Origin: Sideroxydans lithotrophicus
GTDB taxonomy: Bacteria; Pseudomonadota; Gammaproteobacteria; Burkholderiales; Gallionellaceae
Assembly (NCBI GenBank): GCA_020723185.1
Contig: DYJI01000009.1
Span: forward strand, 1-64,000
DNA: 64,000 bases
Direction of reading: 5' to 3'
Part shown: piece by piece, positions 8,891 through 45,493 of the stretch
Position numbering within the stretch: position 1 is the stretch's first letter
Layout: each line of letters begins with the position of its first letter
Translations under genes and position numbers: made by a program
The notes under the pieces: generated by a model
The model's input: only the letters and a program-made list of their open reading frames with translations
What the model was told of the DNA's origin: nothing
Databases searched by the model: none

Positions 8891-8894
8891 ACGC

Positions 8895-17213: not shown

Positions 17214-18835
17214 TCTTTATTCACCCATTCCTTGACCACCGTGGCGACGATCTTGGGGTCGTCCTTGGCCAGTTGCTTGGCGATCTGCAAATTGTTCTCG
17301 TAGGCATGGGCCGCCGACATCGGCTGGCCGTAACCCATGTTGCCACCTTCCTCGCTCTCACCACCGCCGGCATGTTCGGGGGTGGGGCTGAATTCTGCCG
17401 CCGACTTGAAGGCCGGTCGGATGATGCCGAACAGCAGGAAGAAAACGCCGCCGATGATCAGCAGATATTTGACGATATCCTTGGCCAGTTCGATGATCTC
17501 CGTCTGCTTCCAGATGGGGATCTCGGGCAGTGCTTCGGTCGTGTCGTTGAAGGCACTGTTGAGCAGGTTGAGCGTGTCGCCGCGCTGATCTTCGAAACCG
17601 ACCGCTTCCTTGATGAGCGAGGCGATCTGCGCCTTCTCCTGTTCGGTGTACGGTGTGGACACGATCTTGCCGTCCTTGTCCGCCACGTTGCGGTTGTTCA
17701 GTACCACGGCGACCGACAGGCGCTTGATGTTGCCGGTGGGCAGCTTGGTGTGCTGGATGGTGCGGTCCACCTCATAGTTGGTGGTCTGGGCCTTGTGCGT
17801 CTTGTCGGCTGCGGGCGCATTGGCCCCGGTGGCCGGGAGGGCAGTGGCGGGCGACACGATGGGCGCGGTGGCCGGTACCGGCGGCTGGTTGGTCAGCGCA
17901 CCCGGAACGCCGCCGGCCGTTCTCACGCCATCCAGCGCTTCCGTGCTTTGCATGCTGCGCACGGCGGCCTGGTTGGGCGGCTGGTTCGGCTTGTAGAGTT
18001 CCGAGGTCTGTTCGGTGGTGGTGAAGTCCAGGCTGGCGGTGACCTGCGCGCGCACGTTCTGGATGCCGGTGATCGGGCTCAGGATGTCCTCGATGCGCTT
18101 CACGTAATCCAGCTCGATCTGGCGCACATATTTCAGTTGCGAAGCATCCAGTATCTGGTGGTTGCCATCGCGCGCAGCGGAGAGCAGGGTGCCGCTCTGG
18201 TCCACCACGGTCACGTTCTGCGCCGGCATGTTGGGGACGCTGCTGGAGACCAGATGCACGATGGCATTGACCTGGCCTTCGTCCAGCGAGCGGCCGGCAT
18301 ACAGCGACAGCACCACCGAAGCGGTGGGTTTTTGCTTGTCCTTCACGAATACGCTGGGTTTGGGGATGGCCAGGTGGATGCGGGCATTGGCGACGGAGGC
18401 CATGGATTGCACCGAACGTGCCAGTTCGCCTTCCAGGGCACGCTGGAAGTTGACCTGTTCCAGGAACTGGCTGGTGCCGAACTTCTGGTTCTCCATCAGT
18501 TCGAAGCCGGTCGTGCCGCCCTTGGGCAGCCCCTGCGCGGCCATCTTCAGGCGCACTTCGTGCACACGGTCTGACGGCACCATCAGCGCGCCGCCGCCCT
18601 CGGCGAACTTGTAGGGGATGTTCTGTTGCTGCAGGGACTCGATGACCGCGCCGCCGTCACGCTCGGACATGTTGGCATACAGAACGCGGTAATCCGGGGT
18701 CTGCCCCCACATCCATAGTCCCGCCAGCAGCGCGACCGTTGCCGCGACAGCGACCATCAGTCCCAGTTTCTGCTGGCTGGGGATGCCCAGCAGCAGTTGC
18801 GCCATCGATGGATTGTTGATGTTCGTAGTAGCCAT
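17210..18835 (-). CDS. fliF: Flagellar MS-ring protein FliF
   Basis: FliF (541 residues) forms the MS ring in the inner membrane. Two membrane helices flank the periplasmic ring-building motifs: LMVAVAATVALLAGLWMWGQ near residue 30 and YLLIIGGVFFLLFGIIRPAF near 450. The YscJ-like domain has KFAEGGGALMVPSDRVHEVR. ATG 18835 is preferred because AAGGTGA lies seven bases upstream; an ATG at 18853 would add six residues. First gene of the minus-strand operon, it is divergent from fliE across a 232-base region. Confidence 0.96.
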   Translation of the reverse strand: MATTNINNPSMAQLLLGIPSQQKLGLMVAVAATVALLAGLWMWGQTPDYRVLYANMSERDGGAVIESLQQQNIPYKFAEGGGALMVPSDRVHEVRLKMAAQGLPKGGTTGFELMENQKFGTSQFLEQVNFQRALEGELARSVQSMASVANARIHLAIPKPSVFVKDKQKPTASVVLSLYAGRSLDEGQVNAIVHLVSSSVPNMPAQNVTVVDQSGTLLSAARDGNHQILDASQLKYVRQIELDYVKRIEDILSPITGIQNVRAQVTASLDFTTTEQTSELYKPNQPPNQAAVRSMQSTEALDGVRTAGGVPGALTNQPPVPATAPIVSPATALPATGANAPAADKTHKAQTTNYEVDRTIQHTKLPTGNIKRLSVAVVLNNRNVADKDGKIVSTPYTEQEKAQIASLIKEAVGFEDQRGDTLNLLNSAFNDTTEALPEIPIWKQTEIIELAKDIVKYLLIIGGVFFLLFGIIRPAFKSAAEFSPTPEHAGGGESEEGGNMGYGQPMSAAHAYENNLQIAKQLAKDDPKIVATVVKEWVNKE

Positions 18836-19067
18836 ACTGTTCACCTTGTTCATGCACCGCTTCTAGAAGGTTGTGGCCGGAACCGGTGGTCCTGCCCGTA
18901 CCTACACTCGTTTTACGATGCGGATTATCTGCCTGTCGAGCAAGTCCGGTCTGTGGAAAAGCGGGGGAATTCCGGCGTTATTCGGCTTTAAACCGCCATC
19001 CTGGCCCTGTTACTGTGCCGCCATCGGTCAATGCGCGCAAGCCGCGCCAGGTAAAAGGAGGTGTCCC
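18836..19067. promoter_or_regulatory. Divergent fliF / fliE intergenic region
   Basis: This 232-base region must contain promoters for the large fliF-fliR operon and for fliE. I searched by eye for sigma-28 (TAAA-N15-CCGATAA) and sigma-54 (GG-N10-GC) elements on both strands and found no match. At its right end is the only strong signal, the fliE ribosome-binding site AAAAGGAGGTG (19054-19064). The responsible promoter type is therefore unassigned. Confidence 0.4.
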
Positions 19068-19403
19068 ATGAGCATGAACGTGAGCAATGTAGACAATCTG
19101 CTGTCCCAGATGCAGGCGGCCGTCGCGGCCGCCCAGGGTAACGCCTTATCCGCCCCGAAGGCCACCGGCGCTGCCGGAGCTGTCGACTTCGCCAATGTGC
19201 TGAAGTCATCGCTGGATGGCGTGAACCAGATGCAGCGCGAGTCCGATGCGATGCAGAAGGCCTTCATACTGGGAGATGACAAGGTCAGCTTGAGTGATAC
19301 CATGATCGCCATGCAGAAAGCGAACATCTCGTTCCAGACTGCCGTGCAGGTGCGAAACAAGTTCGTGGCGGCCTATAACGACATCATGAACATGCAGGTG
19401 TGA
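19068..19403 (+). CDS. fliE: Flagellar hook-basal body protein FliE
   Basis: FliE (111 residues) is the adaptor between MS ring and rod. The C-terminal signature is complete: ILGDDKVSLSDTMIAMQKAN followed by ISFQTAVQVRNKFVAAYNDI. The frame is open far upstream (to 18873), but ATG 19068 is chosen because it directly follows an excellent ribosome-binding site (AAAAGGAGGTGTCCC) and matches the usual length. It is divergent from fliF and followed by the accessory island. Confidence 0.97.
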   Translation: MSMNVSNVDNLLSQMQAAVAAAQGNALSAPKATGAAGAVDFANVLKSSLDGVNQMQRESDAMQKAFILGDDKVSLSDTMIAMQKANISFQTAVQVRNKFVAAYNDIMNMQV

Positions 19404-19502
19404 GCGCTGAAACCTGCTCTTTCAGGGGTGTGACGAGTTTCGGTTGCCACTCATAAATGGTTGGCCAATATATCTATTGAGATATCCATACAGGAAGCCG
19501 GG

Positions 19503-20597
19503 ATGCAGACGATAGAGCAGATATTGCAAAAAGCGGTCGCTCACCATCAGGCAGGCGACCTGCAAGAAGCAGCGCAGGGCTATCAGGCCGTTCTGCAGGC
19601 TGAACCGGAACATCCGAAAGCAAATCACAATCTGGGCGCAATATATGTGGAGCTGATGCAGCCGGCCGATGGGTTGCCATTCTTCCTGGCCGCACTCAAT
19701 GCCGACCCCGTACACGGCCAATACTGGCTAAGTTATATCCACGCGTTGCAACAATCAGGTCAGTCCGATGTTGCGCAAGAGGTCCTTGCCATAGCACGCC
19801 AGCATGGTTTGAGCGGAGATGATGTCGATGCCCTGGAGGTGAGTTTGCACGTTCGGCAGACTGACTCGAAAGCCTTGCCATCAGTATTCTGTCCTGTTTG
19901 CGGCAGTGATCAGGCCTCTTTTCTGCCACTTCCCGATTTTTACCGCGAAAATGCTCGCCTTCACGGTTTCGAGCGTTTTGGTCAGGGCGAGATGATCTCG
20001 CTGGAAAAATATTCATGTAATCGTTGCGGTGCCTCTGATCGCGAACGCCTTTATGCACTGTGGGTGGATCAGCAACTGGAAAAGAATCTATTAAACCGCT
20101 CGGGCAAGGTGATGCATTTCGCTCCTGAGCCGGCACTATCGAAAAAGCTCAGGCAGTTGTTTATCGATTATGAGACTGCAGATTTCGGAATGGAGACGGT
20201 CGACTACAAGGTCGACATCCAGAACCTGCCATTTGCCAACGGAAGTTACGATTTTTTCATTTGCAGCCATGTTCTGGAGCATGTGGAAAGTGATGATCTG
20301 GCGATCGGTGAACTTTACAGGATCACCAAGCCCGGGGGATGTGGCATCCTTGTCGCACCGATCAGCCTGGGGCTGGAAAGAACGCTGGAAGATCCCGGCG
20401 TGACCGACGAGGCCGGTCGTTGGCGACTATTCGGTCAAAACGATCATGTCAGGCTTTATGCACATGATGATTATGTAAACAAGATACGCAGGCACGGCTT
20501 TCAAGTGACTGAGCTTGGCGAAGAGTACTTCGGGGAAGAGTTGTTCCGATCATTGGGACTCAAGCGTACAAGTATTCTCTATATCGTGAGCAAATAA
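19503..20597 (+). CDS. TPR - zinc ribbon - SAM methyltransferase protein
   Basis: This 364-residue protein has three parts. Residues 1-115 are a TPR-like module. Residues 130-175 carry two Cys pairs (CPVCG, C130/C133, and CNRCG, C172/C175), probably a zinc ribbon. The rest is a type-11-like methyltransferase with IQNLPFANGSYDFFICSHVL, EHVESDDLAIGELYRITKPG. ATG 19503 with AGGAAG upstream is preferred to a TTG at 19461. Its N-terminal module closely matches residues 9-118 of the OGT-like protein at 42917. It is first of a row of glycan-modification genes; acceptor unknown, but modification of a flagellin glycan is the likeliest role. Confidence 0.75.
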   Translation: MQTIEQILQKAVAHHQAGDLQEAAQGYQAVLQAEPEHPKANHNLGAIYVELMQPADGLPFFLAALNADPVHGQYWLSYIHALQQSGQSDVAQEVLAIARQHGLSGDDVDALEVSLHVRQTDSKALPSVFCPVCGSDQASFLPLPDFYRENARLHGFERFGQGEMISLEKYSCNRCGASDRERLYALWVDQQLEKNLLNRSGKVMHFAPEPALSKKLRQLFIDYETADFGMETVDYKVDIQNLPFANGSYDFFICSHVLEHVESDDLAIGELYRITKPGGCGILVAPISLGLERTLEDPGVTDEAGRWRLFGQNDHVRLYAHDDYVNKIRRHGFQVTELGEEYFGEELFRSLGLKRTSILYIVSK

Positions 20598-20654
20598 ACG
20601 GGCATCTGGTTCGGAACTTTCACCCTTGGGCGACTGCATGCTTCGGTGCGGAAA

Positions 20655-21824
20655 ATGAAAAAAATAACAACTTCTCGTGATCTTGCAATCAATGGTGCGG
20701 AACCGGCGTTCGAACAGCAGCTGCACGTCGGTCGCCCGAACATGGGAAGCCGCGAAGCTTTTATCCACTATGTGAATGACATATTCGATCGGCGCTGGCT
20801 TTCGAATAATGGTCCGCTGGTACAGGAGCTGGAAAGCCGTATCGCCAGCCATATCGGTGTGCGACATTGCGTCGCCATGAGCAACGGCACCGTGGCGCTG
20901 GAGATCGCCATTCGTGCGCTGGGAATGGCCGGCGAGGTGATCGTTCCCTCGTTCACATTCATCGCTACTGCACACGCCCTGCATTGGCAGGCCATCACCC
21001 CTGTGTTCGCAGACATCGATCCGGTAACCCACCATCTCGACCCGGCAGCGGTGAGGCGCATGATCACACCGCGCACCAGCGGGATCATAGGTGTCCACTT
21101 GTGGGGACGAGGCGCGCCCGTGGCGGGATTGCAGGAGGTCGCCGAGGAGCATGGGCTGAAGCTGATGTTCGATGCGGCGCACGCCTTTGGTTGTTCACAC
21201 AATGGCCAGATGATAGGCGGCTTCGGTGCTTGCGAGGTCTTGAGCTTCCATGCCACCAAGTTCTTCAATACCTTCGAGGGCGGTGCGGTCGTTACCAACG
21301 ATGACGAGCTGGCCGAGAAGATGCGCCTGATGCGAAATTTCGGGTTCATCGGGCTGGATAACGTCATCCATCCGGGTACCAACGGCAAGATGACCGAGAT
21401 ATCGGCCGCGATGGGTCTGGTCAATCTGGAAGCGCTCGATAGCGTGGTCGAGGCGAACAGGAGGAATTACGAAACATACCTGAGGATGCTCGCCGGGCTG
21501 CCCGGTATCCGCGTGCTGCCCTATGACGACCGGGAACGGAACAACTACCAGTATGTGGTGCTGGAAGTGGCGGAAGCGTGCCCGCAGACTCGCGATGCGA
21601 TCATTGAGGCGCTGCATGCAGAGAATGTCCGTGCTCGGAAATACTTCTGGCCCGGTTGCCATCGCATGAAACCCTACCGTGATCTGTTCCCGCATGCGGG
21701 TCTGATGCTGACTAACACTGAACGGGTGGCGAATGGCATCGTGGTTCTGCCGACGGGGCCGACACTCGATGAGGTCGCGATCGGCACCATTGCCGATGTG
21801 ATCAGAGTGCTGGTGGAGAGCTGA
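20655..21824 (+). CDS. DegT/DnrJ/EryC1/StrS-family sugar aminotransferase
   Basis: A 389-residue PLP-dependent aminotransferase of the nucleotide-sugar type, which would convert a keto-deoxysugar nucleotide to an amino sugar. The PLP lysine is K202 in SFHATKFFNTFEGGAVVTND. The cofactor-contact motif LMFDAAHAFGCSHNG (D173, H176) and the substrate-side AMSNGTVALEIAIRALG are present. The SFHATK-F-NTFEGGA pattern resembles VioA/QdtB-like enzymes making 4- or 3-amino sugars, but specificity cannot be assigned. A GTG three codons upstream (20646) is an alternative start. It ends two bases before the WbqC-family gene. Confidence 0.85.
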   Translation: MKKITTSRDLAINGAEPAFEQQLHVGRPNMGSREAFIHYVNDIFDRRWLSNNGPLVQELESRIASHIGVRHCVAMSNGTVALEIAIRALGMAGEVIVPSFTFIATAHALHWQAITPVFADIDPVTHHLDPAAVRRMITPRTSGIIGVHLWGRGAPVAGLQEVAEEHGLKLMFDAAHAFGCSHNGQMIGGFGACEVLSFHATKFFNTFEGGAVVTNDDELAEKMRLMRNFGFIGLDNVIHPGTNGKMTEISAAMGLVNLEALDSVVEANRRNYETYLRMLAGLPGIRVLPYDDRERNNYQYVVLEVAEACPQTRDAIIEALHAENVRARKYFWPGCHRMKPYRDLFPHAGLMLTNTERVANGIVVLPTGPTLDEVAIGTIADVIRVLVES

Positions 21825-21826
21825 GT

Positions 21827-22546
21827 ATGAGGCTCGCCATCATGCAGCCGTACTTCTTTCCATATATCGGCTATTGGCAGTTGATTCATGCAGCCGACCG
21901 TTTTGTGCTGTTCGACGATGCACAGTACATGCGGCACGGATGGGTCAACCGGAATCGGATCCTGAAGCCGGGTGGTGGCTGGCAGTACATCATGGTGCCG
22001 TTGCAGAAGCACGGGATGACGGCTGCCATAAGGGAGGTGCAGGCGCATCCAGACCTGAGCTGGCGGGAGCGTGTCGTGGCACAGTTGGCGCACTACCGGA
22101 AAAAAGCCCCCTGTTATGAAGAGACGATGGCATTGGTGAGAGAGGCGCTCTTCGGTCATGAACGGCAGGACATCAGCGGAATCAATGCCAACATCGTCGG
22201 TACGTTATGTCCAGCCTTGGGGCTGGACCGCGAAATCATCATCTCGTCAGAACGAGGTTTCGATTATGCGGACGTGAAAGATTCCGGAGAGTGGGCACTC
22301 AGGATTTCAGAGCAGATGGGGGCTACCGAATACATCAATCCGATCAGCGGCGCATCGCTGTTCGATGGCCGGAAATTCCTGGATAGCGGCATCCAATTGT
22401 CTTTTCTGCAGTCTCAGGAGATCACCTACCGTCAACCTGGTGCTTTTGAACCCGCGCTGTCGATCATTGATGTCCTGATGTTCAACGGAACGGAAGGGAC
22501 GCGACTGCTTCTTGATCACTACGCTATCGAACCGGCTGAATCATGA
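21827..22546 (+). CDS. WbqC-family protein
   Basis: This 239-residue protein matches the WbqC-like family, with the hallmark N-terminus MRLAIMQPYFFPYIGYWQLI followed by HAADRFVLFDDAQYMRHGW, VNRNRIL. WbqC proteins occur in O-antigen and glycan clusters beside DegT aminotransferases; a role in acylating or aminoacylating amino sugars has been suggested, but the reaction is not established. The start is two bases after the aminotransferase stop and its end overlaps the next gene by 4 bases, a tight transcriptional unit. Confidence 0.85.
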   Translation: MRLAIMQPYFFPYIGYWQLIHAADRFVLFDDAQYMRHGWVNRNRILKPGGGWQYIMVPLQKHGMTAAIREVQAHPDLSWRERVVAQLAHYRKKAPCYEETMALVREALFGHERQDISGINANIVGTLCPALGLDREIIISSERGFDYADVKDSGEWALRISEQMGATEYINPISGASLFDGRKFLDSGIQLSFLQSQEITYRQPGAFEPALSIIDVLMFNGTEGTRLLLDHYAIEPAES

Positions 22547-23235
22547 GCGACTACTGGCAAGGACACTATGACGCTGCCACGCTGGATTTCGACGGGGCGT
22601 TATTGAAACAAGTGGGGAAGACTGTAAATGGGGTCGAGGTCCCGGAGGGGCAGCTGGCTCTCATCGTTGGCAACATCATATCCCTGCTGGTGCTGGATAA
22701 AGCTGACGTGCTGGCAGACCTGTGCTGCGGGAACGGACTGATCACCAGGAGGCTGGCACCATTTGTGCGGGAGGTCGTCGGGATCGATTTTTCTCTTGGC
22801 TTGATCGAAACAGCCAAACGGACGTGCCCGCTGGCCAATATCGAGTACCGCCATGCGGATGTGACCGATCTGCCTGGCGGCTTCTTTGGCGGGTTCGGCA
22901 AGGTCCTGATGTATGAAGCGCTGCAGCATTTCTCGGAAGCGCAATTCGGTCACTTGCTCGGCCAGCTTGTGGCGCTGGCTCCGGGTGCCAAGGTGCTGTT
23001 GGGAAGCATCCCCGATGCGGAGCGTTTGCGCGACTATTACGATACCGAGGAAAAATACGAATTCTATTTGCAGCGCGAGCGTGAAGGCAGGCCGCACATG
23101 GGCCGTTGGTGGCATTTCGATGAGATAGCGCGATCAGCCGAGCCATACGGTTTCAAGGTGCAGCGCATACTGCAGCCGCAGGCACTCTACACGGCCTATT
23201 ACCGTTTCGATGTCCTGCTGGAGAGGACGGCATGA
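22543..23235 (+). CDS. SAM-dependent methyltransferase
   Basis: A 230-residue class I methyltransferase. Motif I is ADLCCGNGLITRRL (residues 58-71), motif II is VVGIDFSLGLIETAK, and a post-I acidic and aromatic region follows (YRHADVTDLPGGFFGGF). The overlap with both neighbours (4 bases each side) places it in the same unit as the WbqC protein and the sulfotransferase. Likely substrate is a sugar or sugar nucleotide in the same pathway; this is inference from context. Confidence 0.8.
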   Translation: MSDYWQGHYDAATLDFDGALLKQVGKTVNGVEVPEGQLALIVGNIISLLVLDKADVLADLCCGNGLITRRLAPFVREVVGIDFSLGLIETAKRTCPLANIEYRHADVTDLPGGFFGGFGKVLMYEALQHFSEAQFGHLLGQLVALAPGAKVLLGSIPDAERLRDYYDTEEKYEFYLQREREGRPHMGRWWHFDEIARSAEPYGFKVQRILQPQALYTAYYRFDVLLERTA

Positions 23236-24047
23236 AGAACATCGGAATCTTCGGAACGCCGCGATCCGGAACCTCATGGATCGGGCATATCTTCAATAGT
23301 CACCCGGATGTGGCGCTCAGATTCCAGCCCTTGTTCTCGTACGGACACAAGGGGAGCTTGTCGGAACATTCTTCCCGGGAAGAGATCGATGATTTCTTTC
23401 GGGATATTCTCAATTCCCGCGATGCCTTCGCCACGATGACGGCGGAATCGCAGAGGGATTATCCTTCGTTCCAGAAGTCCCCCCATCCCAGCCATGTGGT
23501 CTTCAAGGAGACGCGCTACCTGAATGTCGTCGGCAATATGCTGGCGCGAGGGGAAGGTTTGAAGATCATCGGTATCGTCCGGAACCCTCTGGCGGTGCTG
23601 GCCTCGTGGATGCAGGCACCCAAGGAGTTCAAGCCGGAATGGGACATGCTTAAAGAGTGGCGGCTTGCGCAAAGCAAGAATCAGGGCCGGCCGGAGGAAT
23701 TCTTCGGGTTTGACAAGTGGAAAGAATCGACCGAGGACTTTCTGATGTTCGAGAAGATGTATCCGCAAAAATTCATGCTGCTGCGTTATGCGGAGTTGAA
23801 TCACTCTCCGCAGGGAACCACGAGGAAGATATTTCGGTTCTGCGAACTGGATATGGATCCACAGGTTGAGAAGTTCCTGTCTGACAGCAAATCACGCCAC
23901 GACCCGGACCCGTATTCGGTTTTCCGGGCGCAGGCGAACGATGAAAGGTGGCAGGACGTGTTGCCCAGCGACATCGTCGGGACAATCAGGGATGAATTGA
24001 GAAACACTGCGCTGTATGAATTTATCGGTAATGGAAAGCATGCCTAA
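23232..24047 (+). CDS. PAPS-dependent sulfotransferase family protein
   Basis: A 271-residue protein with the two PAPS-binding signatures of the sulfotransferase superfamily: the 5'-phosphosulfate loop GTPRSGTSWIGHIF at residues 8-21 and the 3'-phosphate motif IGIVRNPLAVLASWM with R117 and S125. It would transfer sulfate to a carbohydrate hydroxyl. It overlaps the preceding methyltransferase by 4 bases and the following glycosyltransferase by 8. A sulfotransferase within a flagellar gene region is unusual and points to a sulfated glycan. Confidence 0.85.
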   Translation: MKNIGIFGTPRSGTSWIGHIFNSHPDVALRFQPLFSYGHKGSLSEHSSREEIDDFFRDILNSRDAFATMTAESQRDYPSFQKSPHPSHVVFKETRYLNVVGNMLARGEGLKIIGIVRNPLAVLASWMQAPKEFKPEWDMLKEWRLAQSKNQGRPEEFFGFDKWKESTEDFLMFEKMYPQKFMLLRYAELNHSPQGTTRKIFRFCELDMDPQVEKFLSDSKSRHDPDPYSVFRAQANDERWQDVLPSDIVGTIRDELRNTALYEFIGNGKHA

Positions 24048-26442
24048 GATCACGGTGATACTGACTTCGTTCAATCACGAAAAATACATCCGTGAAGCGA
24101 TCGATAGCATCCTGCAGCAGACATTCGGGGATTTCGAACTGTTCATCTGGGATGATGCTTCCCGGGATGGTTCGTGGGAGATCATCCGCAGTTATACCGA
24201 CGACCGTATCAAGGCCTTCCGCAATGATGTTTCCAGAAGAGGCATCTACGGGATCAACAAGACGATTTGCGAGCTGGCTTCGGGTCAGTACATTGCCATC
24301 CATCATTCCGATGATGTGTGGGAGCCGGAAAAGCTGGAGAGGCAACTTGCATATCTGGAGGCGCACCCGGAGACGGGGGCGGTATTCAGTAATGCACTGG
24401 CCATCGGTGAGGATAGTAAGCCGCTGACTGACAAGCAGCATTTCTATTCGGATGTATTCAGACAGCCGAACCGTTCCCGCCACCAGTGGCTGCGACATTT
24501 CTTCTTCTCGGGCAATGCGCTGTGTCATCCCAGCGTTCTCATGCGCAAAGCATGTTATGACGAGTGCGGAGTCTACCGGTTCGGGCTTGCGCAACTTCCG
24601 GATCTCGACATGTGGGTCCGTCTTTGCATGCGTTACGACATCCACGTGCTTCCGGAAAGTTTGATCCGGTTCAGGGTCAGGGATAACGAGGCGAATTCCA
24701 GCGGGAACCGCCCTGAAGTACGCATCCGCGACAGGTCCGAGTTCCACCACATCCTCAGGCAGTATTTCAGGGTCGTGTCTTTTGAAGAGCTGGTGGCCAT
24801 ATTCCCCGAGGCGGAAGTTTATCGTCGCGAGCAAGGCTGCATCCCTGGTTTCGTCATGTCCATGGTCTCGCTTGGGGCGAACGCATTCCCGTGGGCCAGG
24901 GCACTGGCGATCGAGACCCTGCTGGAACTGATGACTGATGAGAGCTCGCGTCAGCAGCTGCTTCATGTCTACCAGTTCGACTACAAGGATCTGGTCAACA
25001 TCACTGGCCAGCAAGACATCTTCTCTCTGGAAACAGTTGCCAGATTGAATGAGGAGCTGTTCAAGTGCGGTGAGTCGCTTGGGCAATTGCTTGCACTCAA
25101 TGAGAAGACACGGGCTGGTGAACCGGATGCAGACCGGGCGGGATACGAGCAAGCCGAGCATTTGTTCGAAGTGGGAAGAGTGGAGGAGGGTATTGCTCAA
25201 CTGGAGAAGTTGGCGGCGCAGGGTAGCCCGCTGTGGGAGGTGTACAACGACCTTGCCGTCCAGTGTTTCAATGCGGGGGAGCATGATCGTGCAGGTGAAC
25301 TGTTCAGGGAAGGCATGATCCTTGAGGGCACCGCCGGGATCGTTGCGAGGAACTACACTTCGATGCTTATGGCCACAGGGGATACGGGTGCGGCGCTGGA
25401 GATGCTTGGTCGTATCTTGCAGGAACACCCTGATGATGCTGATGTGATCGAGACGTTGCGCCAAATCTTGTCCAATCTGCCGTCTGACTCGGCAAACTTG
25501 TGGCGGCGCCTGGCAGTCGTCGCCGATGAGGGGAATTCCTGTCATGAGAGACGGTCGGCAGGTCGGGACGCGGAAGCGAGGAGTACAAATGATGTCCGGA
25601 TATTCCAGATCTACTACGACGAAAAGACGCGTGCGCAGCTCGATCCGGCTTTCATCCCGCTGGATAACTTGGAGAATCCGCGACCGGACTGGTGCGAATA
25701 TTGGCCGATCCGCAAAGTGTTGCTGGAGCAGACTTTTGACGACGACACTTATCTAGGCTTTTTTTCGCCCCGGTTCTTCGAAAAGACGGGGATGCGGGGT
25801 GAGGAGGTGCTGGCGGCGGTTCGGCAGTCGGGGGATGAGGTTGTGAGCTTCTCTCCGTTCTTCGATCAGGGCGCGATCCATATCAACCCATTCGTCCAGG
25901 GCGAAGTGAATCACCCGGGAATGATCGCTATCGCCCAGAATGTGCTGCAGTCGCTGGGCATAGAAATGGACTTGCAGACCACAGTATCCGACCGGACGAC
26001 GACCATCTTCAGCAATTATTTCGTTGCCCGCTACTCTTTCTGGAAGCGTTGGTTCGACTGCTTTGAGCGTATTTATGCGATCTGTGAAGGCCCGGATTCC
26101 GCCCTGAAGGCCAAACTGATCAGTCACACGCAATATCGTGCGGGTACTAACTATCAGATGAAGATTTTCATTCTTGAGCGGCTGGTTACGGTGCTCTTGG
26201 AAAAATTCCATCTGCAATGCGAACTGGCCCTGGATATTCGACGAGCACCGCTGTCGTTCCCCGGGACGGAAAGAGTAGTGGACGAACTGCTGGTGACAGA
26301 CTGGCTGAAGGGGCGTTTCCGGGTCACGGGCCAAGTGGGATATCTGGAGATTTTTGGACTCTATGTCGGCAGGCTGGTGCGTGAGGTTCTGAAGCCGAGT
26401 ATCGGGGAGGTCCCGGGCCATGATCCGGATCGATCCGGTTGA
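24040..26442 (+). CDS. GT2 glycosyltransferase - TPR - unrecognised C-terminal domain
   Basis: An 800-residue multidomain protein. Residues 1-240 are a family 2 glycosyltransferase: MPKITVILTSFNHEKYIREA, WDDASRDGSWEII, and the metal-binding-like HHSDDVWEPEKLERQLAYL (D91-D92). Residues about 365-490 are TPR-like helices (AEHLFEVGRVEEGIAQLEKL). Residues about 545-790 form a further domain that I do not recognise, with RIFQIYYDEKTRAQLDP, YLGFFSPRFFEKTGM and FSNYFVARYSFWKRWFDCFE. ATG 24040 gives an 8-base overlap with the sulfotransferase gene; ATGs at 24016 and 24031 are alternatives. It is the last gene of the plus-strand part of the island. Confidence 0.75.
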   Translation: MPKITVILTSFNHEKYIREAIDSILQQTFGDFELFIWDDASRDGSWEIIRSYTDDRIKAFRNDVSRRGIYGINKTICELASGQYIAIHHSDDVWEPEKLERQLAYLEAHPETGAVFSNALAIGEDSKPLTDKQHFYSDVFRQPNRSRHQWLRHFFFSGNALCHPSVLMRKACYDECGVYRFGLAQLPDLDMWVRLCMRYDIHVLPESLIRFRVRDNEANSSGNRPEVRIRDRSEFHHILRQYFRVVSFEELVAIFPEAEVYRREQGCIPGFVMSMVSLGANAFPWARALAIETLLELMTDESSRQQLLHVYQFDYKDLVNITGQQDIFSLETVARLNEELFKCGESLGQLLALNEKTRAGEPDADRAGYEQAEHLFEVGRVEEGIAQLEKLAAQGSPLWEVYNDLAVQCFNAGEHDRAGELFREGMILEGTAGIVARNYTSMLMATGDTGAALEMLGRILQEHPDDADVIETLRQILSNLPSDSANLWRRLAVVADEGNSCHERRSAGRDAEARSTNDVRIFQIYYDEKTRAQLDPAFIPLDNLENPRPDWCEYWPIRKVLLEQTFDDDTYLGFFSPRFFEKTGMRGEEVLAAVRQSGDEVVSFSPFFDQGAIHINPFVQGEVNHPGMIAIAQNVLQSLGIEMDLQTTVSDRTTTIFSNYFVARYSFWKRWFDCFERIYAICEGPDSALKAKLISHTQYRAGTNYQMKIFILERLVTVLLEKFHLQCELALDIRRAPLSFPGTERVVDELLVTDWLKGRFRVTGQVGYLEIFGLYVGRLVREVLKPSIGEVPGHDPDRSG

Positions 26443-26477
26443 GTCAGGCGGTGTGGCGCAGTCTGGGTGGGAGCACG

Positions 26478-27158
26478 CTAGTCGCCCCACTTTTCAAAGT
26501 ATTTGAGGCAGGAAGCTATCCAGTCATCCGATCCGAAATTTCCGGCGCTTTGATGTATCACCGAGAGCGGCCAAGTCCCCATGCGAAGATTGAGTGCCTC
26601 GGCCTGCCTGCAGAGATCGAGGTCGTAGAAGTGGAAATCGAATCTTTCATCGAATCGCAGACCGCAGTCGATCATGGTCTGGCTATGGCAGGCGAGCAGC
26701 AGGCCGTCGAGCAGTTTTACCTCCTGGCGGGATGGTCCGAACTTGCTGAGGTTGGCGGGGGGGAAGCCTTTGCCGTGCCCGACGATGCCGCTGAGATTTT
26801 CTTTTGCGTCCCACCTGAGATTGGTGTCGACAAAAGCCCACGAGGGTTGGAATGGCGCGCGCCGCTTATTGCCGGCAACGCCAATCAACTGGAACCTGTC
26901 GAGGGCAGTTTTGATCTCCAGCGGCCAGTCAAAGCCGCAGATATGGACATCATCATGAATGAACACAAGGATCGCCGGGTCATGTTTTGCAGCCTCGATG
27001 GCTTTGTTGTAGAGGAGTGGCAGTCCGAGAGTGTTCTGGGCAAACAGTAAGACTTCGACGGACGGGTAATCGTACAGGGCCAGCGATCTGCCGGTTGCTG
27101 TGCCGGTCGGGAAATCTTCTTTGCGTTCGCGCGTGGCGACCACGAATCTGATCTTCAT
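26478..27158 (-). CDS. Glycosyltransferase, GT2-like (StrF-type domain)
   Basis: A 226-residue protein in the opposite orientation, converging on the large glycosyltransferase with a 35-base gap. It starts MKIRFVVATRERKEDF and has an acidic metal-site-like motif LVFIHDDVHICGFDWPLEI (D69-D70), then HFYDLDLCRQAEALNLRMGT and IHQSAG. These features match the short GT2-like family found in StrF and flagellin/O-antigen loci. It lacks a membrane segment, so it is probably cytoplasmic. Donor and acceptor are not predictable. Confidence 0.75.
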   Translation of the reverse strand: MKIRFVVATRERKEDFPTGTATGRSLALYDYPSVEVLLFAQNTLGLPLLYNKAIEAAKHDPAILVFIHDDVHICGFDWPLEIKTALDRFQLIGVAGNKRRAPFQPSWAFVDTNLRWDAKENLSGIVGHGKGFPPANLSKFGPSRQEVKLLDGLLLACHSQTMIDCGLRFDERFDFHFYDLDLCRQAEALNLRMGTWPLSVIHQSAGNFGSDDWIASCLKYFEKWGD

Positions 27159-27245
27159 CTGTAAGTCTCCGGCACGATTGAGAGCGGGGTGCCCCTGTCG
27201 CAGTGATATTCTCCGCCCCGGGTGTGGACAGGCATTATCCGGCAG

Positions 27246-28016
27246 TCACTCCCCTGCACTTTTTTTCCGCGCAAGCTCACGTTGAGCCAGCGTGACATAG
27301 CGCTGCAACATCATGCGGGCCTCGGCATCGGGATTCACGAACACGCAGCCGGCGCGGCGATTCACTTCTCCGTTGCGTGCCGTGACTTCGAACACGTTCT
27401 TAACCTCGATGCCGGTCCGGATGGTACCGACATCCGGCAGTTCGATCTCGCAATCCTGGTAGGTCGATCCGGGTGTCAATTCCACGCTGTCTTCGGCGCA
27501 GACCAGAGCCACGCCGCCGATGCTGATGTCCATCACTGTCACTTCGTGGTGGACATGTTTCTTTGCCGCGTATGGACGGATGAGACATTTGAGCGCATTC
27601 GGCTCGACATTGAGCAGACGGTAGTAGTCGCGGCGTTGCAGACGCAAAAGCTTCCTGGGTAGTGGCAGGAAGAACGCTGCCGCGTTCTGGAACAGTCCCT
27701 GCGTGGTCTCCGTGGATACCCATTGCACTTTTGCCATGTTGTGGGTGCTGACGAACACGATGCGGTTGCTGCGCTCGATATTGCGGTTGTCGATGGGGTT
27801 GGGCGAGGCGTCGACCCATATGCCGGTTTCGTCAGCCGCCAGCAGCAGGGTGAGTACCACGCTGCTGTCCTCGTTGTAATAGAGCGCCACTCGATTGTGC
27901 TGCTGCACGATGTCGCGCAGGACGGAAAGGATCTCGCGCGGATTTCGCAGGATGAAATCGTTCTCGTCATCCTGGGCGAATACTTCGATCTTGAGCGGAA
28001 TCTCTTTGCTGCGCAT
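27246..28016 (-). CDS. ycgR: Flagellar brake protein YcgR (PilZ domain, c-di-GMP receptor)
   Basis: A 256-residue protein with the YcgR N-terminal domain (LRNPREILSVLRDIVQQHNR) followed by a PilZ domain. The c-di-GMP-binding signatures are both intact: RxxxR in LQRRDYYRLL and DxSxxG in VMDISIGGVAL. On binding c-di-GMP, YcgR acts on the rotor/stator to slow swimming. It lies downstream of the fliD-flhB2 genes on the same strand, and two diguanylate cyclases are encoded elsewhere in the window. Confidence 0.92.
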   Translation of the reverse strand: MRSKEIPLKIEVFAQDDENDFILRNPREILSVLRDIVQQHNRVALYYNEDSSVVLTLLLAADETGIWVDASPNPIDNRNIERSNRIVFVSTHNMAKVQWVSTETTQGLFQNAAAFFLPLPRKLLRLQRRDYYRLLNVEPNALKCLIRPYAAKKHVHHEVTVMDISIGGVALVCAEDSVELTPGSTYQDCEIELPDVGTIRTGIEVKNVFEVTARNGEVNRRAGCVFVNPDAEARMMLQRYVTLAQRELARKKSAGE

Positions 28017-28058
28017 GGTGCGACCCGTATTGAGTGGATACCCGCGCGATTCTAACGG

Positions 28059-28355
28059 TTAGGATGGTTTTGCGGTGGGGGGAATAGCGGGGATTTCTCC
28101 CCGCTCAAGACGGTATAGCCATGCCAGCAGCTCGGCCACGGCCAGATACAGCGCTGGCGGGATGTGCTGGTCCAGTTCGACCTGCATCAGCATCGCTACC
28201 AGTTCTGCCGATTCATGTACGAACACACCGTGTTCCTTGGCGCGTTCGATGATGGCCTGTGCGATCAGGCCGCGCCCGCTGGCCACGACTTTCGGCGCAG
28301 TGTCGCCGCTGCGATAGGCGAGGGCGACCGCCATCTGACGGTTGGGCCGGTTCAT
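28059..28355 (-). CDS. FlhB C-terminal-domain protein (FlhB2/FhlB-like)
   Basis: A 98-residue stand-alone version of the cytoplasmic domain of the export switch protein FlhB. It shows AVALAYRSGDTAPKVVASGR, LIAQAIIERAKEHGVFVHES and the closing helix ELLAWLYRLERG. It has no membrane helices and no NPTH autocleavage motif. Such proteins can substitute for the cleaved FlhB C-terminal fragment. It overlaps the fliK-like gene by 4 bases. Confidence 0.88.
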   Translation of the reverse strand: MNRPNRQMAVALAYRSGDTAPKVVASGRGLIAQAIIERAKEHGVFVHESAELVAMLMQVELDQHIPPALYLAVAELLAWLYRLERGEIPAIPPTAKPS

Positions 28356-29422: not shown

Positions 29423-29442
29423 GGCTCATTGCCGCACACGTT

Positions 29443-29754
29443 TCAGCGATAAGCCTGTTGCAGGCGCTGCTCGCTGCGGGCGCTCTGCATGATCTTTTCC
29501 AGCTGGTGCATCCAGGTCACTGTCTTTTCGCGGATCGCCTTGTCGTCCGCCAGCATCTTTTTTATCAGTGCGACTTTTTGCAGGCGAGAAGCCTCGTCAG
29601 CAGGCACCCCGTCGCGCGGCTTGAGCTCGGCGACCTGCTTGCTGCAGCGGCGCTCCAGCGCGATCAGTTCATCCCACTCACCCGCTGCAGCGGCTTCACG
29701 CATCTTGCCCGTGATATCCGACAGGCGCTGGTAATCTTCGACGATCATGTTCAT
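29443..29754 (-). CDS. fliT: Flagellar export chaperone FliT-like protein
   Basis: A small helical protein of 103 residues, the size of FliT. It lies directly after fliS, where FliT, the chaperone for the FliD cap, is normally encoded. Features are YQRLSDITGKMREAAAAGEW, ELIALERRCSKQV and a C-terminal helix TVTWMHQLEKIMQSARSEQR. FliT families diverge strongly, so gene order is the main support. Confidence 0.82.
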   Translation of the reverse strand: MNMIVEDYQRLSDITGKMREAAAAGEWDELIALERRCSKQVAELKPRDGVPADEASRLQKVALIKKMLADDKAIREKTVTWMHQLEKIMQSARSEQRLQQAYR

Positions 29755-29757
29755 GAC

Positions 29758-30228: not shown

Positions 30229-30234
30229 GATGTA

Positions 30235-31653: not shown

Positions 31654-31669
31654 TCCGTTCGCTCCTTTG

Positions 31670-32026: not shown

Positions 32027-32043
32027 TTTGCCTCTCCTTGTTC

Positions 32044-32074
32044 AAATCCCCGGCCGGTCACCCGGCCGGGGTTT
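32044..32074 (-). terminator. Hairpin terminator/attenuator between fliC and flaG
   Basis: A perfect 10-bp GC stem (32048-32057 with 32062-32071) has a 4-base loop, and flanking AAA/TTT can extend it past a single unpaired base. On the minus strand it follows the fliC stop. The run after it is only GATTTG, so termination is probably partial, which would lower flaG-fliD levels below those of flagellin. Confidence 0.7.
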
Positions 32075-32085
32075 CTGTACTACGT

Positions 32086-32802
32086 TTAACGCAACAGACT
32101 CAGAACGTTGTTCGGGATCTGGTTGGCCTGCGCCAGCATCGCGGTACCCGCTTGTTGCAGAATCATGTTGCGGGTCATGGCGGTGGTCTCGGCCGCGTAG
32201 TCGGTATCCATCACCCGGCTGTAAGCGGCTGCGGTATTCACCGACAGGGTCTGCAGGTTGGTGACCGCAGACTGGTACTTGGCCATATCCGCACCGTAGG
32301 TGGAGCGAGCGGTGGTCACCAAGGTGATGTCCGCATCGATGGTGGCGATGGCACCGGTGCCGGTAATTGCCGCCTTGGTGCCGGCGACGGTAGCCAGTGC
32401 GCCATCTGCACCGATAACCTTGGCGGTGCTGTTGCTGGCCAAGCCGAGCAGACGGGTGTTTTCAGCAGCCAGCGCGGTGAATTCAGCTCCGGAGGCGGTG
32501 CCACCCAGTTGCACCGCGATCTCGCGGATGCGCTGCAAGTTCTCATACACCTGAGCGTGGTAGCCGTCGTTGATCTGTGCTTCGGAAATGCCGTCGGCTG
32601 CGTTGCGTGCGGCGATGTTGGCACCGCGCATGGTCTTTTCGTAGCCGCTGGCCGTCACCATGCCGGTGGCATCGTCCTTGGCAGTGTTGATGCGTTTGCC
32701 GGAAGACAGGCGCTCCATAGCAGTCTGCAAGGCTGTGGCAGATTTGTTCAGTGCTGCGCCGCCGAAAAGAGCCGAGACGTTGGTGTTGATGACTTGTGCC
32801 AT
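32086..32802 (-). CDS. fliC: Flagellin FliC (very short)
   Basis: Flagellin of only 238 residues. The N-terminal D0/D1 region is standard (AQVINTNVSALFGGAALNKS; LSSGKRINTAKDDATGM), as is the C-terminal D1/D0 (VMDTDYAAETTAMTRNMILQ, ending LAQANQIPNNVLSLLR). The stretch between them (about residues 100-170) is short and rich in Ala, Thr and Gly, so D2/D3 outer domains are absent. It has a canonical GGAGA ribosome-binding site and a near-consensus sigma-28 promoter about 90 bases upstream. Short flagellins are common where the surface is built by glycans. Confidence 0.97.
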   Translation of the reverse strand: MAQVINTNVSALFGGAALNKSATALQTAMERLSSGKRINTAKDDATGMVTASGYEKTMRGANIAARNAADGISEAQINDGYHAQVYENLQRIREIAVQLGGTASGAEFTALAAENTRLLGLASNSTAKVIGADGALATVAGTKAAITGTGAIATIDADITLVTTARSTYGADMAKYQSAVTNLQTLSVNTAAAYSRVMDTDYAAETTAMTRNMILQQAGTAMLAQANQIPNNVLSLLR

Positions 32803-32890
32803 TTTAGTTCTCCTTAACTTGGTTCACTTGCGGCCATGTTGCCGCTTACTTTGGCTGCTTTGTGTAGCTTGGCAACCGCCGTTGAACCAG

Positions 32891-32917: not shown

Positions 32918-32926
32918 GGGAGAATT

Positions 32927-42181: not shown

Positions 42182-42927
42182 GCAAGAGCGAGACATTGAT
42201 CGCGCATCTGGTCGAGCTGCGCTCGCGCCTGCTGAACAGTTTCCTGGCATGGTTGCTGGTGTTCATCTGCCTGTTCCCGTGGGCGGCCGAACTGTATGCC
42301 TTGCTGGCGCAGCCCATGCTGGACAAGTTGCCGCAGGGCGGCCAGATGATCGCCACCGATGTCACCACACCGTTCTTCGTGCCGCTCAAAGTCGCGATGA
42401 TGGTGTCCTTCGTCGTCGCGCTCCCCTTTGTCCTGTATCAGGTCTGGCGATTCGTTGCGCCGGGTCTGTATGCTCATGAGAAGAAGCTGGTGTTGCCGCT
42501 GATCATGGCCAGTACACTGCTGTTCCTGTGCGGCATGGCGTTCGCCTATTTTGCGGTATTCCCGGTGGTGTTCGGTTTCATCACGGCGGCTGCTCCGGCG
42601 GGTGTGGCGGTGATGACCGACATCGATAAATATCTGAGCTTCGTGATGGGTATGTTCCTCGCCTTCGGCATCACCTTCGAAGTGCCTGTTGTGGTGGTTA
42701 TTCTGGTACGCATGGGTTTGGTGACGGTGGAAAAGCTGCGCGAGGTGAGGTCCTACGTCATCGTCGGGGCCTTCATCATCGCAGCCATCGTCACGCCGCC
42801 GGATGTGGTCTCGCAATTCATGCTGGCGGTCCCGCTGTGGTTGCTGTACGAGGCGGGGGTGGTGGTGGCGGGTTGGACCGGCACGCGCGATCGCATCCCC
42901 AACGACAGCGTGACGGATGACCACTGA
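42178..42927 (+). CDS. tatC: Sec-independent translocase subunit TatC
   Basis: TatC (249 residues) is the six-helix core of the Tat receptor. The N-terminal cytoplasmic motif LIAHLVELRSRLLNSFLAWL and the periplasmic FVPLKVAMMVSFVVALPFVL are conserved, as are FVAPGLYAHEKKL and the helix FGITFEVPVVVVILVRMGLV. Its 3' end overlaps the start of the OGT-like gene by 11 bases. Confidence 0.97.
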   Translation: MSKSETLIAHLVELRSRLLNSFLAWLLVFICLFPWAAELYALLAQPMLDKLPQGGQMIATDVTTPFFVPLKVAMMVSFVVALPFVLYQVWRFVAPGLYAHEKKLVLPLIMASTLLFLCGMAFAYFAVFPVVFGFITAAAPAGVAVMTDIDKYLSFVMGMFLAFGITFEVPVVVVILVRMGLVTVEKLREVRSYVIVGAFIIAAIVTPPDVVSQFMLAVPLWLLYEAGVVVAGWTGTRDRIPNDSVTDDH

Positions 42928-45493
42928 TCCCGCGTACGCGCAGGTCGCTGAAACCCTGCAGCAGGCCGCCGCGCTGCATCAATCCGGACTGGCGGCCGCT
43001 GCAGCCGAACTATATCGGGTCGTTCTAAGTATCCTGCCCAAACATCCTGATGCCAACCACGAGCTGGCTGTCACCCTGCTACAGACCGGTCAGGCCGTAG
43101 CCGCCATCCCACATTTCCTTGTCGCACTCGAAGCGGATCCTGAGCGCCCGCGATTCTGGCTGAGTTATATCGATGCACTGGCCCAGGCCGGACAGCACGA
43201 TGCCGCGCGCGAGGTCCTGCAGATGGCACGGCAGCAAGGTTTGCAAGGAGAGGAAGCAGACGCATTGGTCGCACGTTTGTCATCTTCCAGTCAGTCGCCC
43301 CGATCATTGCAATCAGGGCAGAAAGCGCCGACACAAGCGCAACTCGACGAGTTGGTCATGCTGTTCAACCAGGGGCGGGTGGCAGATACGGCATCCCGTG
43401 CGCGAGCATTGACAGAACAGTTTCCCAAACACGGATTCGGATGGAAGGTATTGGGGCTGGCCTTGAAGCAGCTGGGCGATAACGAAGCAGCGATCCCCGC
43501 GATGCAGAAAGCTGCAGCCCTGTCGCCCAAGGAGGCGGATGTGCACAGCAATCTCGGTGTCGCGCTGCAGGATGCGGGGCGATTGAAAGAGGCGGAGGCC
43601 AGCTACCGGCGGGCGCTCAAACTCAAGCCGGACTATGCTGATGCTCATTGCAATCTGGGCACCTTGCTGCAGGACATGGGTAAGTTGGATGAAGCGGCGG
43701 CTGCCCATCGCCGAGCCTTGAGGTTGTCGCCTCGCCTTGCTGACGCACACTACAACTTGGGCAACACGCTGCGGGCAATGGGGCGTAGCGATGAGGCGGT
43801 GCAATGCTACCTGCGTGCGCTCGAATGCAGGCCGGATTACGCTCAAGCCTGTTGCAATCTGGGTATTGTGCTGCAGGATTTGGGTCGTTTCGACCAGGCA
43901 GAACAGATGTTGCGCCGCGCACTGGTAATCAAGCCTGATTATGTCGAAGCTTGCGCCAATCTGGGCAGTACCCTGAAGCGCCTTGGGCGACAGGAGGAAG
44001 CGGAAGAAGCTTACAGGCTGGCGCTGCAGCTTAATCCTGGTGCAGCTGAAGTGCACGGCAATCTCGGGGTTTTGTTGCACGAGATGGGCGAACTCGCTGA
44101 GTCTGAGGCGTGTTATCTCCGAGCTTTGCATCTGGCGCCTGATTTGCCGGATGTTCAAAACAATTACGGTGTGCTGCTGCAGGATCTGGGGCGGTTGGGT
44201 GAGGCAGAGGCAGCCTACCGAAAGGCCTTGTCACTCCGTCCGAACTATTTTCTGGCACATAGCAACTTGTTGTTCCTGCTTAACTACAGTCTTGATGTAT
44301 CGCAACAGGCAGCATTTGACGAGGCTTGCCGATTCGGGGCGTCAGTATCGTCCAGAGTCGGGCATCGCTATGCCAAGTGGTCGTGTGCAGAACACGGGCC
44401 TTTGCGCATAGGTTTCGTTTCGGGAGACTTCCGGAATCACCCGGTCGGCTATTTCCTGGAGAATCTGCTTCGTTACCTGGATCGGCAAACATTCGAGATC
44501 TATGCCTATCCTACGGATCCACGGGAGGACGAACTGACTGTGCGCCTCAAGTCATATTTCTCGGTTTGGCACCCCATATATGGGATGAATGACGAACTTG
44601 CGGCAAAAAGCATCCGTGATGATGGTGTGCATGTCCTGCTGGACTTGTCTGGTCATTCGCGCTTCAACCGGTTGCCGGTTTTTGCACTGAGACCTGCCCC
44701 GGTACAGGTTGCCTGGCTGGGATACTTTGCAACAACCGGGATGGCCGAGATGGACTATCTCATCGCGGATCCTTCAGTCTTGCTAAAGTCACAAGAGCGA
44801 TATTTCACGGAGAAGATATGGAGATTGCCTCAGACGCGGTTATGTTTCAGTCGCCCGGATATCGAAGTTGATGTGTCTCCTTTGCCTGCCAAGGTGAGCG
44901 GATTTGTCACTTTTGGTTGTTTTAACAATCTGGCCAAGGTGAACGATAGTGTCATCGGCCTGTGGGCGCGAGTGCTGCTTTCGGTGTCAGGGAGCCGGCT
45001 TTTCCTTAAGGCGAAGCAGCTTGGAGATGCCAGCGTTCGACAACAGACTGTTGCGCGTTTCGCTGCCTGCGGCATAGAAGCAGAGCGGCTGATCTTGGAG
45101 GGGGCAGAGTCCCGTGCAAAATATTTTGAGGCGTACCATCGTGTAGATATCTCACTGGATCCATTTCCTTATCCGGGGGGGACAACAACTATGGAGAGCC
45201 TGTGGATGGGGGTGCCTGTCCTGAATCTGACCGGCGATTCATTCCTATTGCGTCAGGGAGCTGGTCTGCTGACCAATCTGGGTTTGCAGGACTGGATTGC
45301 CACTTCGCGTGAAGATTATGTGCGACGAGCAGTCGGTTTCTCGGGTGATTTGCCTACGCTGGAAGAGCTTAGGAGCGAGCTTAGAATGCGTGTCGAAGCA
45401 TCTCCATTAATGGATGGCAAGCGCTTTGCAGCAGACTTCGGTGATGTGCTCCGGTTGTTCTGGGAAGCGTGTCCAAAAGTGAAACAACGCTAG
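42917..45493 (+). CDS. TPR - O-GlcNAc transferase-like protein (GT41/SPINDLY type)
   Basis: An 858-residue protein. Residues 1-120 are an N-terminal module shared with the methyltransferase at 19503 (FWLSYIDALAQAGQHDAARE here). About eight canonical TPR repeats follow (165-460, for example AEASYRRALKLKPDYADAHC). Residues 494-858 are a GT41 catalytic region: LRIGFVSGDFRNHPVGYFLE, VLLDLSGHSRFNRLPVFALR, and the UDP-site segment FPYPGGTTTMESLWMGVPVL. Bacterial members include flagellin glycosyltransferases such as FlmG. It interrupts the usual tatC to degS-like order and overlaps tatC by 11 bases. Protein O-glycosylation is the best guess, with flagellin as candidate target. Confidence 0.85.
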   Translation: MTTDPAYAQVAETLQQAAALHQSGLAAAAAELYRVVLSILPKHPDANHELAVTLLQTGQAVAAIPHFLVALEADPERPRFWLSYIDALAQAGQHDAAREVLQMARQQGLQGEEADALVARLSSSSQSPRSLQSGQKAPTQAQLDELVMLFNQGRVADTASRARALTEQFPKHGFGWKVLGLALKQLGDNEAAIPAMQKAAALSPKEADVHSNLGVALQDAGRLKEAEASYRRALKLKPDYADAHCNLGTLLQDMGKLDEAAAAHRRALRLSPRLADAHYNLGNTLRAMGRSDEAVQCYLRALECRPDYAQACCNLGIVLQDLGRFDQAEQMLRRALVIKPDYVEACANLGSTLKRLGRQEEAEEAYRLALQLNPGAAEVHGNLGVLLHEMGELAESEACYLRALHLAPDLPDVQNNYGVLLQDLGRLGEAEAAYRKALSLRPNYFLAHSNLLFLLNYSLDVSQQAAFDEACRFGASVSSRVGHRYAKWSCAEHGPLRIGFVSGDFRNHPVGYFLENLLRYLDRQTFEIYAYPTDPREDELTVRLKSYFSVWHPIYGMNDELAAKSIRDDGVHVLLDLSGHSRFNRLPVFALRPAPVQVAWLGYFATTGMAEMDYLIADPSVLLKSQERYFTEKIWRLPQTRLCFSRPDIEVDVSPLPAKVSGFVTFGCFNNLAKVNDSVIGLWARVLLSVSGSRLFLKAKQLGDASVRQQTVARFAACGIEAERLILEGAESRAKYFEAYHRVDISLDPFPYPGGTTTMESLWMGVPVLNLTGDSFLLRQGAGLLTNLGLQDWIATSREDYVRRAVGFSGDLPTLEELRSELRMRVEASPLMDGKRFAADFGDVLRLFWEACPKVKQR

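Follow-up and report, generated by a model that had tools for sequence, protein, structure and literature searches.

What is a set of sugar-modifying genes doing in the middle of a flagellar gene cluster? The question is raised by a stretch of 64,000 nucleotides from Sideroxydans lithotrophicus (GenBank assembly GCA_020723185.1, contig DYJI01000009.1, positions 1 to 64,000; the whole stretch is called the window here), in which seven genes, identified by open frames and Pfam, fill the interval between fliE and a ycgR-like PilZ gene (Table 1). An earlier note, made from the letters of the sequence, had proposed a flagellin-glycan island at this place, with a TPR-methyltransferase, a DegT aminotransferase, a WbqC protein, a methyltransferase, a sulfotransferase and two GT2-type proteins. 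All seven open frames were found where the note had put them, and Pfam agrees with the families it named. That the interval is a flagellar glycan island is well supported by the comparisons described below. The flagellum-linked glycan island is a known type; the unusual part is a sulfotransferase-bearing cassette that is found elsewhere in polysaccharide loci. A sulfated, methylated amino sugar is a plausible prediction for the island product.

The fliE-PilZ site in the genus

FliF, the TPR-methyltransferase, DegT and the sulfotransferase were each searched in 61 genomes (the own one, 33 of the genus, 3 of the family and 24 of the order), and 34 stretches were compared with the window genes. 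Genomes, fetched loci and contigs are denoted by G, L and C numbers. The gap between fliE and the PilZ gene was measured in 33 sequences, namely the window and 32 of the 34 stretches; the two set aside, L056 and L057, represent other families of the order. Both borders were visible by BLAST in 19 genomes. Nine have an empty site, with 26-69 bp between the matches (G006, G009, G013, G023, G024, G026, G030, G032 and G033), and ten have a filled one of 3.5-16.9 kb (the own genome, G005, G007, G008, G011, G014, G015, G028, G029 and G031); glycan-gene matches of varying content are present in all ten filled intervals. Judged by single FliF matches, the closest four genomes (G006, 92%; G009, G032 and G033, 90%) all have empty sites, and G021, with FliF in two pieces (94% and 88%), stood outside the empty/filled comparison. 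fliE had no BLAST match in 8 of the 33 sequences. Six genomes show fliE without the PilZ gene in the stretch; glycan-gene matches follow fliE in G003, G004 and G027, and G002 offers only 3 kb.

Within the genus, the interval between fliE and PilZ behaves as a variable hot spot. Such variable presence and content among relatives is a mark of flagellin glycosylation islands, as are a G+C below that of the flanks, the position of the insert inside the flagellar cluster, with fliE on the left and the genes from PilZ to fliC on the right, and the company of glycosyltransferases (GT2 and GT2-like) with a sugar-synthesis gene (DegT). The alignment to the empty-site relative G006 stops in the fliE stop codon and restarts within the PilZ gene, 25 bases in from its 3' end. 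Past the PilZ gene, the minus strand carries an FlhB C-terminal-like gene, a FliK-domain gene, FliT, FliS, FliD, FlaG and flagellin.

Genes shared with other fliE islands

Full-length relatives of the TPR-methyltransferase (71-72%) occur only in G022, G028 and G029 of the 60 other genomes, all other matches covering single domains. The relative adjoins fliE in G029 and lies downstream of fliE in G028, and the G022 contig carries the end of fliF. The restriction of these relatives to flagellar-linked islands, together with the variable hot spot, bears out the flagellar setting proposed in the earlier note. In the islands of the same three genomes, the fetched loci also hold relatives of GT2-TPR (52-61% over the matched parts) and of GT2b (44-66%). 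Between these shell genes the window has DegT, WbqC, methyltransferase and sulfotransferase, and G028 has another DegT (36%), WbqC, methyltransferases, a hexapeptide protein and a PhyH protein. The inner genes thus look like a mobile sugar cassette set among shell genes common to other islands of the genus.

The C-terminal part of GT2-TPR has no Pfam match even at E 5. Its 323 residues (25471-26439) matched one of 369 genomes of the class, the own one, and none of the 368 others; the genus member G028 holds a GT2-TPR relative over nearly the full length, C-terminal part included.

The six genes on the plus strand form a unit that begins 99 bases after fliE, and the seventh gene is on the opposite strand. 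Five of the genes were said to be joined by overlaps of 2-8 bases. Overlaps of 4, 4 and 8 bases do exist at the WbqC/methyltransferase, methyltransferase/sulfotransferase and sulfotransferase/GT2-TPR junctions (the last if the ATG at 24040 is used), but 2 bases lie between DegT and WbqC, and TPR-methyltransferase and DegT are 57 bases apart. No Rfam family or tRNA was found in the window at the thresholds used. Among phage families, an aminotransferase phrog is the best counterpart for DegT (155 bits); the other genes have weak matches or none.

Table 1. Genes of the fliE-PilZ interval, its borders, and two further genes of the window
Feature	Position	Strand	Evidence
fliE, left border	19069..19403	+	PF02049 108 bits; start 19069 taken from sequence
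TPR + S-adenosylmethionine (SAM)-methyltransferase, 364 aa	19503..20597	+	Pfam
DegT/DesI-like sugar 4-aminotransferase	20655..21824	+	PF01041 361 bits
WbqC family protein	21827..22546	+	PF08889 214 bits
SAM-dependent methyltransferase	22543..23235	+	PF13649 47 bits
Sulfotransferase of the 3'-phosphoadenosine 5'-phosphosulfate (PAPS) type, 271 aa	23232..24047	+	PF00685 59 bits, PF13469 58 bits
GT2 glycosyltransferase + TPR + C-terminal part without Pfam match (GT2-TPR), 800 aa from ATG 24040	24040..26442	+	Pfam, GT2 96 bits
Small GT2-like protein (GT2b)	26478..27158	-	PF13712 31 bits, cut-off 27
PilZ/YcgR-like gene (PilZN/PilZ), right border	27246..28016	-	PF07317 79 bits
fliC flagellin, 238 aa, proposed acceptor	32086..32802	-	Flagellin_N match
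TPR + GT41-like glycosyltransferase, outside the island	42917..45493	+	PF13844 174 bits

The sulfotransferase

The motif PRSGTS and the residues R117, P119 and S125 are invariant in all six aligned sulfotransferases; we take them to be the 5'-phosphosulfate loop and the 3'-phosphate motif of the PAPS site. By sequence, no credible relative was found in the PDB. The structural model (predicted local distance difference test score, pLDDT, 83) has 125 PDB matches at E<=0.001, and the best 50 of the 125 are all sulfotransferases, with modest TM scores (query) of 0.42-0.58. A source of PAPS is at hand in an adenosine 5'-phosphosulfate (APS) kinase gene, cysC, which scores over the cut-off (231 bits at C9:152435); apart from this, the genome gave just one partial match of 22 bits, at position 55060 of the window.

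The protein is rare, being matched in 29 of 369 genomes of the class, own included. Only G158 (34%, E 1e-43) and G094 (31%, E 3e-31, broken frames) are strong matches, and the remaining 26 are weak (E 3e-10 or worse) and mostly short pieces. The neighbourhoods of G158 and G094 were compared; G051, with a short locus, was seen by BLAST only. A PF13469 search of 34 genomes (the own one, 20 of the genus and 13 of the order) gave matches in 13, of which only those of the window and of G007 (C4:111471-112013) lie within a fliE-PilZ interval that could be seen. The fliE island of G007 (L044:3128-18226) holds a NeuB-family gene, a thiamine-diphosphate enzyme, an epimerase, a TylF-type methyltransferase, a GT41-like gene and the sulfotransferase, which belongs to the same Pfam family as that of the window, although BLASTP aligns only 43 residues (E 0.005). 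No further copies turned up among the stop-free frames of the 33 sequences with three sulfotransferase models, beyond the models' own members. Since the two sulfotransferases are at most distantly similar and the scanned stretches hold no others, the fliE-PilZ site probably gained a sulfotransferase twice, if sulfation of the flagellar glycan is real.

The inner cassette in polysaccharide loci

A scan of genome contigs gave five loci (L090-L094). The order DegT, WbqC, methyltransferase, sulfotransferase is found in four of them, from Algibacter (L091), Mangrovimonas (L092), Lutibacter (L093) and a Lucinoma symbiont (L094, apparently the same record as the G158 contig), with one extra aminotransferase-like gene between WbqC and methyltransferase in L093. 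In the fifth, from Accumulibacter (L090), the sulfotransferase is 55% identical and the methyltransferase is matched only in part. Across the cassette loci, identity to the window is 38-43% for WbqC and 34-54% for the sulfotransferase; the methyltransferase in the matching slot of L091-L094 has 26-32%. The aminotransferase slot varies, with another DegT type in L091-L094 (30-36%) and matches of 41 and 32% in L090. Nearby genes include ABC2 and Wzt beside the cassette in L091 (Pfam) and an APS kinase about 4 kb upstream in L093. Frames of the G158 contig were read by eye, presumably as rmlB, rmlA, rmlC and rmlD.

In a polysaccharide-type locus of G094 (L089:5876-10557), DegT, WbqC, methyltransferase and sulfotransferase are degenerate, with the aminotransferase 57-75% identical over broken pieces. 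G016 has a 75% identical aminotransferase in a DegT-WbqC pair, accompanied by an APS kinase, an inositol-phosphatase-family gene and a sulfotransferase-family gene. Frames around this pair were read as flippase-like, rmlC-like and rmlD-like, which is our assumption. The cassette was likely assembled from polysaccharide loci, since the aminotransferase slot varies and the G016 pair lies in such a locus.

Amino-sugar formation, methylation and sulfation had been regarded as the combination that sets this island apart. The genes for this combination are present, but they are not specific to the flagellum; because the cassette is found in non-flagellar polysaccharide loci, it would be a transferable sugar module and not a flagellum-specific invention.

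Aminotransferase, WbqC and precursor supply

Which sugar could these genes make? The best PDB match of DegT is DesI (2po3, 387.6 bits; next best 202), and the closest family among the dTDP-4-keto-6-deoxyglucose 4-aminotransferases (VioA/DesI type) is DesI (TIGR04427), yet the score of 497 bits is below the curated cut-off of 650. The stretch SFHATK is kept, its lysine being presumably catalytic. Genes for the precursor, rmlA (524 bits) and rmlB (511 bits), are over cut-off and lie together on contig C9 with the APS kinase. WbqC follows the aminotransferase slot in all six aligned cassettes. Its AlphaFold2 model is confident (pLDDT 88) and has no PDB fold match at E<=0.001, so that no mechanism is drawn from the fold. 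The pseudaminic and legionaminic acid genes had been described as lacking, and indeed no NeuB-type synthase for these sugars was found in the genome; the sole match (39 bits, partial; cut-off 22.1) was judged DAHP-synthase-like. We name that frame, and the HisC-like and TyrA-like frames on either side of it, from their sequences.

Flagellin and the GT41-like gene

Flagellin_N has two matches in the genome, fliC and a gene at 6817-8022 that we take, from its place, to be flgL. The start of the GT41-like gene at 42917 overlaps the end of the frame before it, presumably tatC-like, and the empty-site relatives G006 and G009 have the same arrangement (63-65%). Because counterparts are arranged alike in these island-free genomes, the GT41-like protein may be a core O-glycosyltransferase of the genus for flagellin or another protein, and it is a possible initiating enzyme.

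As a separate observation, G032, with its empty fliE site, carries GT41-like, DegT and WbqC matches in another place, between the GGDEF gene and a flagellin gene (L052:5732-18933).

Comparison with known systems

The flagellin glycosylation islands of Enterobacteriaceae are variable inserts in the flagellar locus between fliC and fliA, carry glycosyltransferases with DegT and SAM methyltransferases as well as GT41 enzymes that include methyltransferase domains, have a G+C averaging 5.2% less than that of the genome, and show piecewise horizontal exchange (De Maayer and Cowan 2016, PMC4875605). The island of the window is alike in its flagellar insertion, its glycosyltransferases with DegT and SAM methyltransferases and its lowered G+C, and differs in its site. 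WbqC, sulphotransferase and words in sulf- are absent from the main text of that paper. In Pseudomonas syringae pv. tabaci 6605, a dTDP-viosamine aminotransferase and a methyltransferase of the viosamine island serve the flagellin glycan (PMC3927599); the island here has a DesI-like candidate for the former, and methyltransferases. However, nothing among the seven genes corresponds to the vioB, vioS, vioR and acp of that island, whose own seven listed genes include no sulfotransferase and which is sited between glutamine synthase and histidine kinase genes.

The cassettes of L091-L094, and L090 in part, have the same four families in the same order as the window but differ in their surroundings, with exporter or rml-like genes beside some, and, in L091-L094, in the DegT type. 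In Caulobacter FlmG, a TPR part binds flagellin and a GT-B part transfers pseudaminic acid in cytoplasmic O-glycosylation (PMC7591256). TPR joined to a glycosyltransferase is a candidate way to aim at flagellin here as well, a likeness of working only, since the island protein combines GT2, TPR and a part without Pfam match. Halobacterium salinarum is reported to have a sulfated N-glycan on glycoproteins and archaellins (PMC11980604, PMC6591318); its sulfotransferases serve the N-glycan of a species with an N-glycosylated motility filament, but the system is N-linked and archaeal and the filament unrelated. Words in sulf- are also absent from the main texts of PMC3927599, PMC7591256, PMC5109656 and PMC3958885 (for the spelling with sulph-, the check covered the single word sulphotransferase in PMC4875605). 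At the level of titles and abstract starts, the open-licence literature gave no sulfated bacterial flagellin, and it did give sulfated archaeal glycans.

Proposed pathway and alternative explanations

We think it probable, though by no means assured, that this is a flagellin glycosylation island working most likely as follows. RmlA and RmlB would supply dTDP-4-keto-6-deoxyglucose, which the DesI-like DegT would aminate at C4 to dTDP-viosamine; the next slot of the cassette belongs to WbqC, which probably works on this amino sugar. The methyltransferase or methyltransferases would add methyl, and the sulfotransferase sulfate from PAPS made through the APS kinase. The TPR parts of TPR-methyltransferase, GT2-TPR and perhaps the GT41-like enzyme would recognise cytoplasmic flagellin, and the TPR-fused enzymes may attach and finish the glycan before flagellin is exported. 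The identity of the sugar, the order of the steps, its sulfation and flagellin as the acceptor are what we infer.

Several observations weigh against such a reading. The evidence for glycosylation is indirect. Among the seven genes, to which this search was confined, there is no VioB-type N-acyltransferase and no ACP, VioS or VioR. The GT41-like TPR gene present in the nine other filled intervals is absent from that of the window, and G012 and G025 have fliE, without the PilZ gene, and no clear glycan genes behind it. The lowered G+C of the island counts in its favour, being 0.553 for 19404-27245, against 0.619 for 8000-19403 and 0.598 for 27246-35000 (6.6 and 4.5 points lower), but values of 0.55-0.59 also occur at parts of about 44-53 kb, and fliE and the PilZ gene themselves stand at 0.58, so the dip alone proves little. 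The serine and threonine content of FliC was rejected as evidence of glycosylation; the protein is short (238 aa) and gives no signal, its central fraction being 0.19 against 0.16-0.27 in seven other flagellins and 0.16-0.25 in four empty-site relatives (a motif rule gave eight flagellins in all). A strict scan for late-flagellar promoters gave no good sigma-28-like site ahead of the island; flgK and fliC do have such sites before them. A loose scan was near chance (35 sites, 25 expected), and the one plus-strand site that it placed close by overlaps with the start codon of the first gene. Sigma-54 sites were at chance level, sigma-70 promoters and terminators were rarer than in shuffled sequence, and a promoter-like site within fliE and a terminator-like one within the first gene were not used as evidence. 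Since the gap between fliE and the first island gene has neither a good sigma-28-like site nor a terminator-like site, read-through of the fliE transcript into the island is possible.

Could the product instead be destined for the cell surface, with the fliE site merely convenient for insertion? The cassettes outside the genus speak for a sulfated, methylated amino sugar of lipopolysaccharide or exopolysaccharide: none of the flagellar genes of the window, used as queries, is matched in any of the five loci (12.5-20.8 kb), the gene order recurs in four of them, and ABC2/Wzt or rml-type genes stand nearby. So does the polysaccharide locus of G016 (L049:6471-11820), a genus member with no FliF match. 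The earlier note had named the occurrence of the set at polysaccharide loci with no flagellar linkage as the finding that would count against it, and this is what is seen for the inner cassette in distant bacteria and partly within the genus. Nevertheless, no flippase, exporter or polymerase is recognised by Pfam in any of the seven genes, the over-cut-off rmlA and rmlB are on another contig, and the site is repeatedly filled with glycan genes in the genus, with genes common to other fliE islands; we consider a surface polysaccharide rather unlikely. It is more doubtful still that flagellin receives an unsulfated methylated amino sugar as in P. syringae, the sulfotransferase-like protein being inactive in the pathway or the cassette decaying. 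DegT and methyltransferase sets for flagellin are indeed described (PMC3927599, PMC4875605) and the G094 copy is degenerate, but the sulfotransferase of the window is open and keeps the invariant motif residues, an APS kinase is present, and the gene order is kept in distant bacteria. Direct methylation or other modification of flagellin or further flagellar proteins, with no glycan, has a precedent in the methylation-only islands of Enterobacteriaceae (PMC4875605); a nucleotide-sugar aminotransferase and two GT2-type genes make it very improbable here.

Implications

Beyond the flagellin glycosylation island itself, we tentatively suggest, as a possibility and less than a likelihood, that a mobile sulfated-sugar cassette was captured by the flagellar hot spot, giving filaments that bear a coat of sulfated, methylated 4-amino-4,6-dideoxyhexose and would be to bacteria what the sulfated archaellum is to archaea, and that the genus swaps such cassettes at fliE-ycgR, as G007 with its second sulfotransferase and NeuB-family gene may illustrate. 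Sulfated, methylated amino-sugar decoration is a chemistry known from archaea and was not found for bacterial flagella in the portion of the literature searched. The fixed slot after the aminotransferase makes the role of WbqC testable, and the empty-site relatives are a natural comparison for the role of flagellin glycans. If the proposal is true, the filament would be strongly negative in charge, an exchangeable cassette would set that charge, and one mobile module would link polysaccharide and flagellin chemistry.

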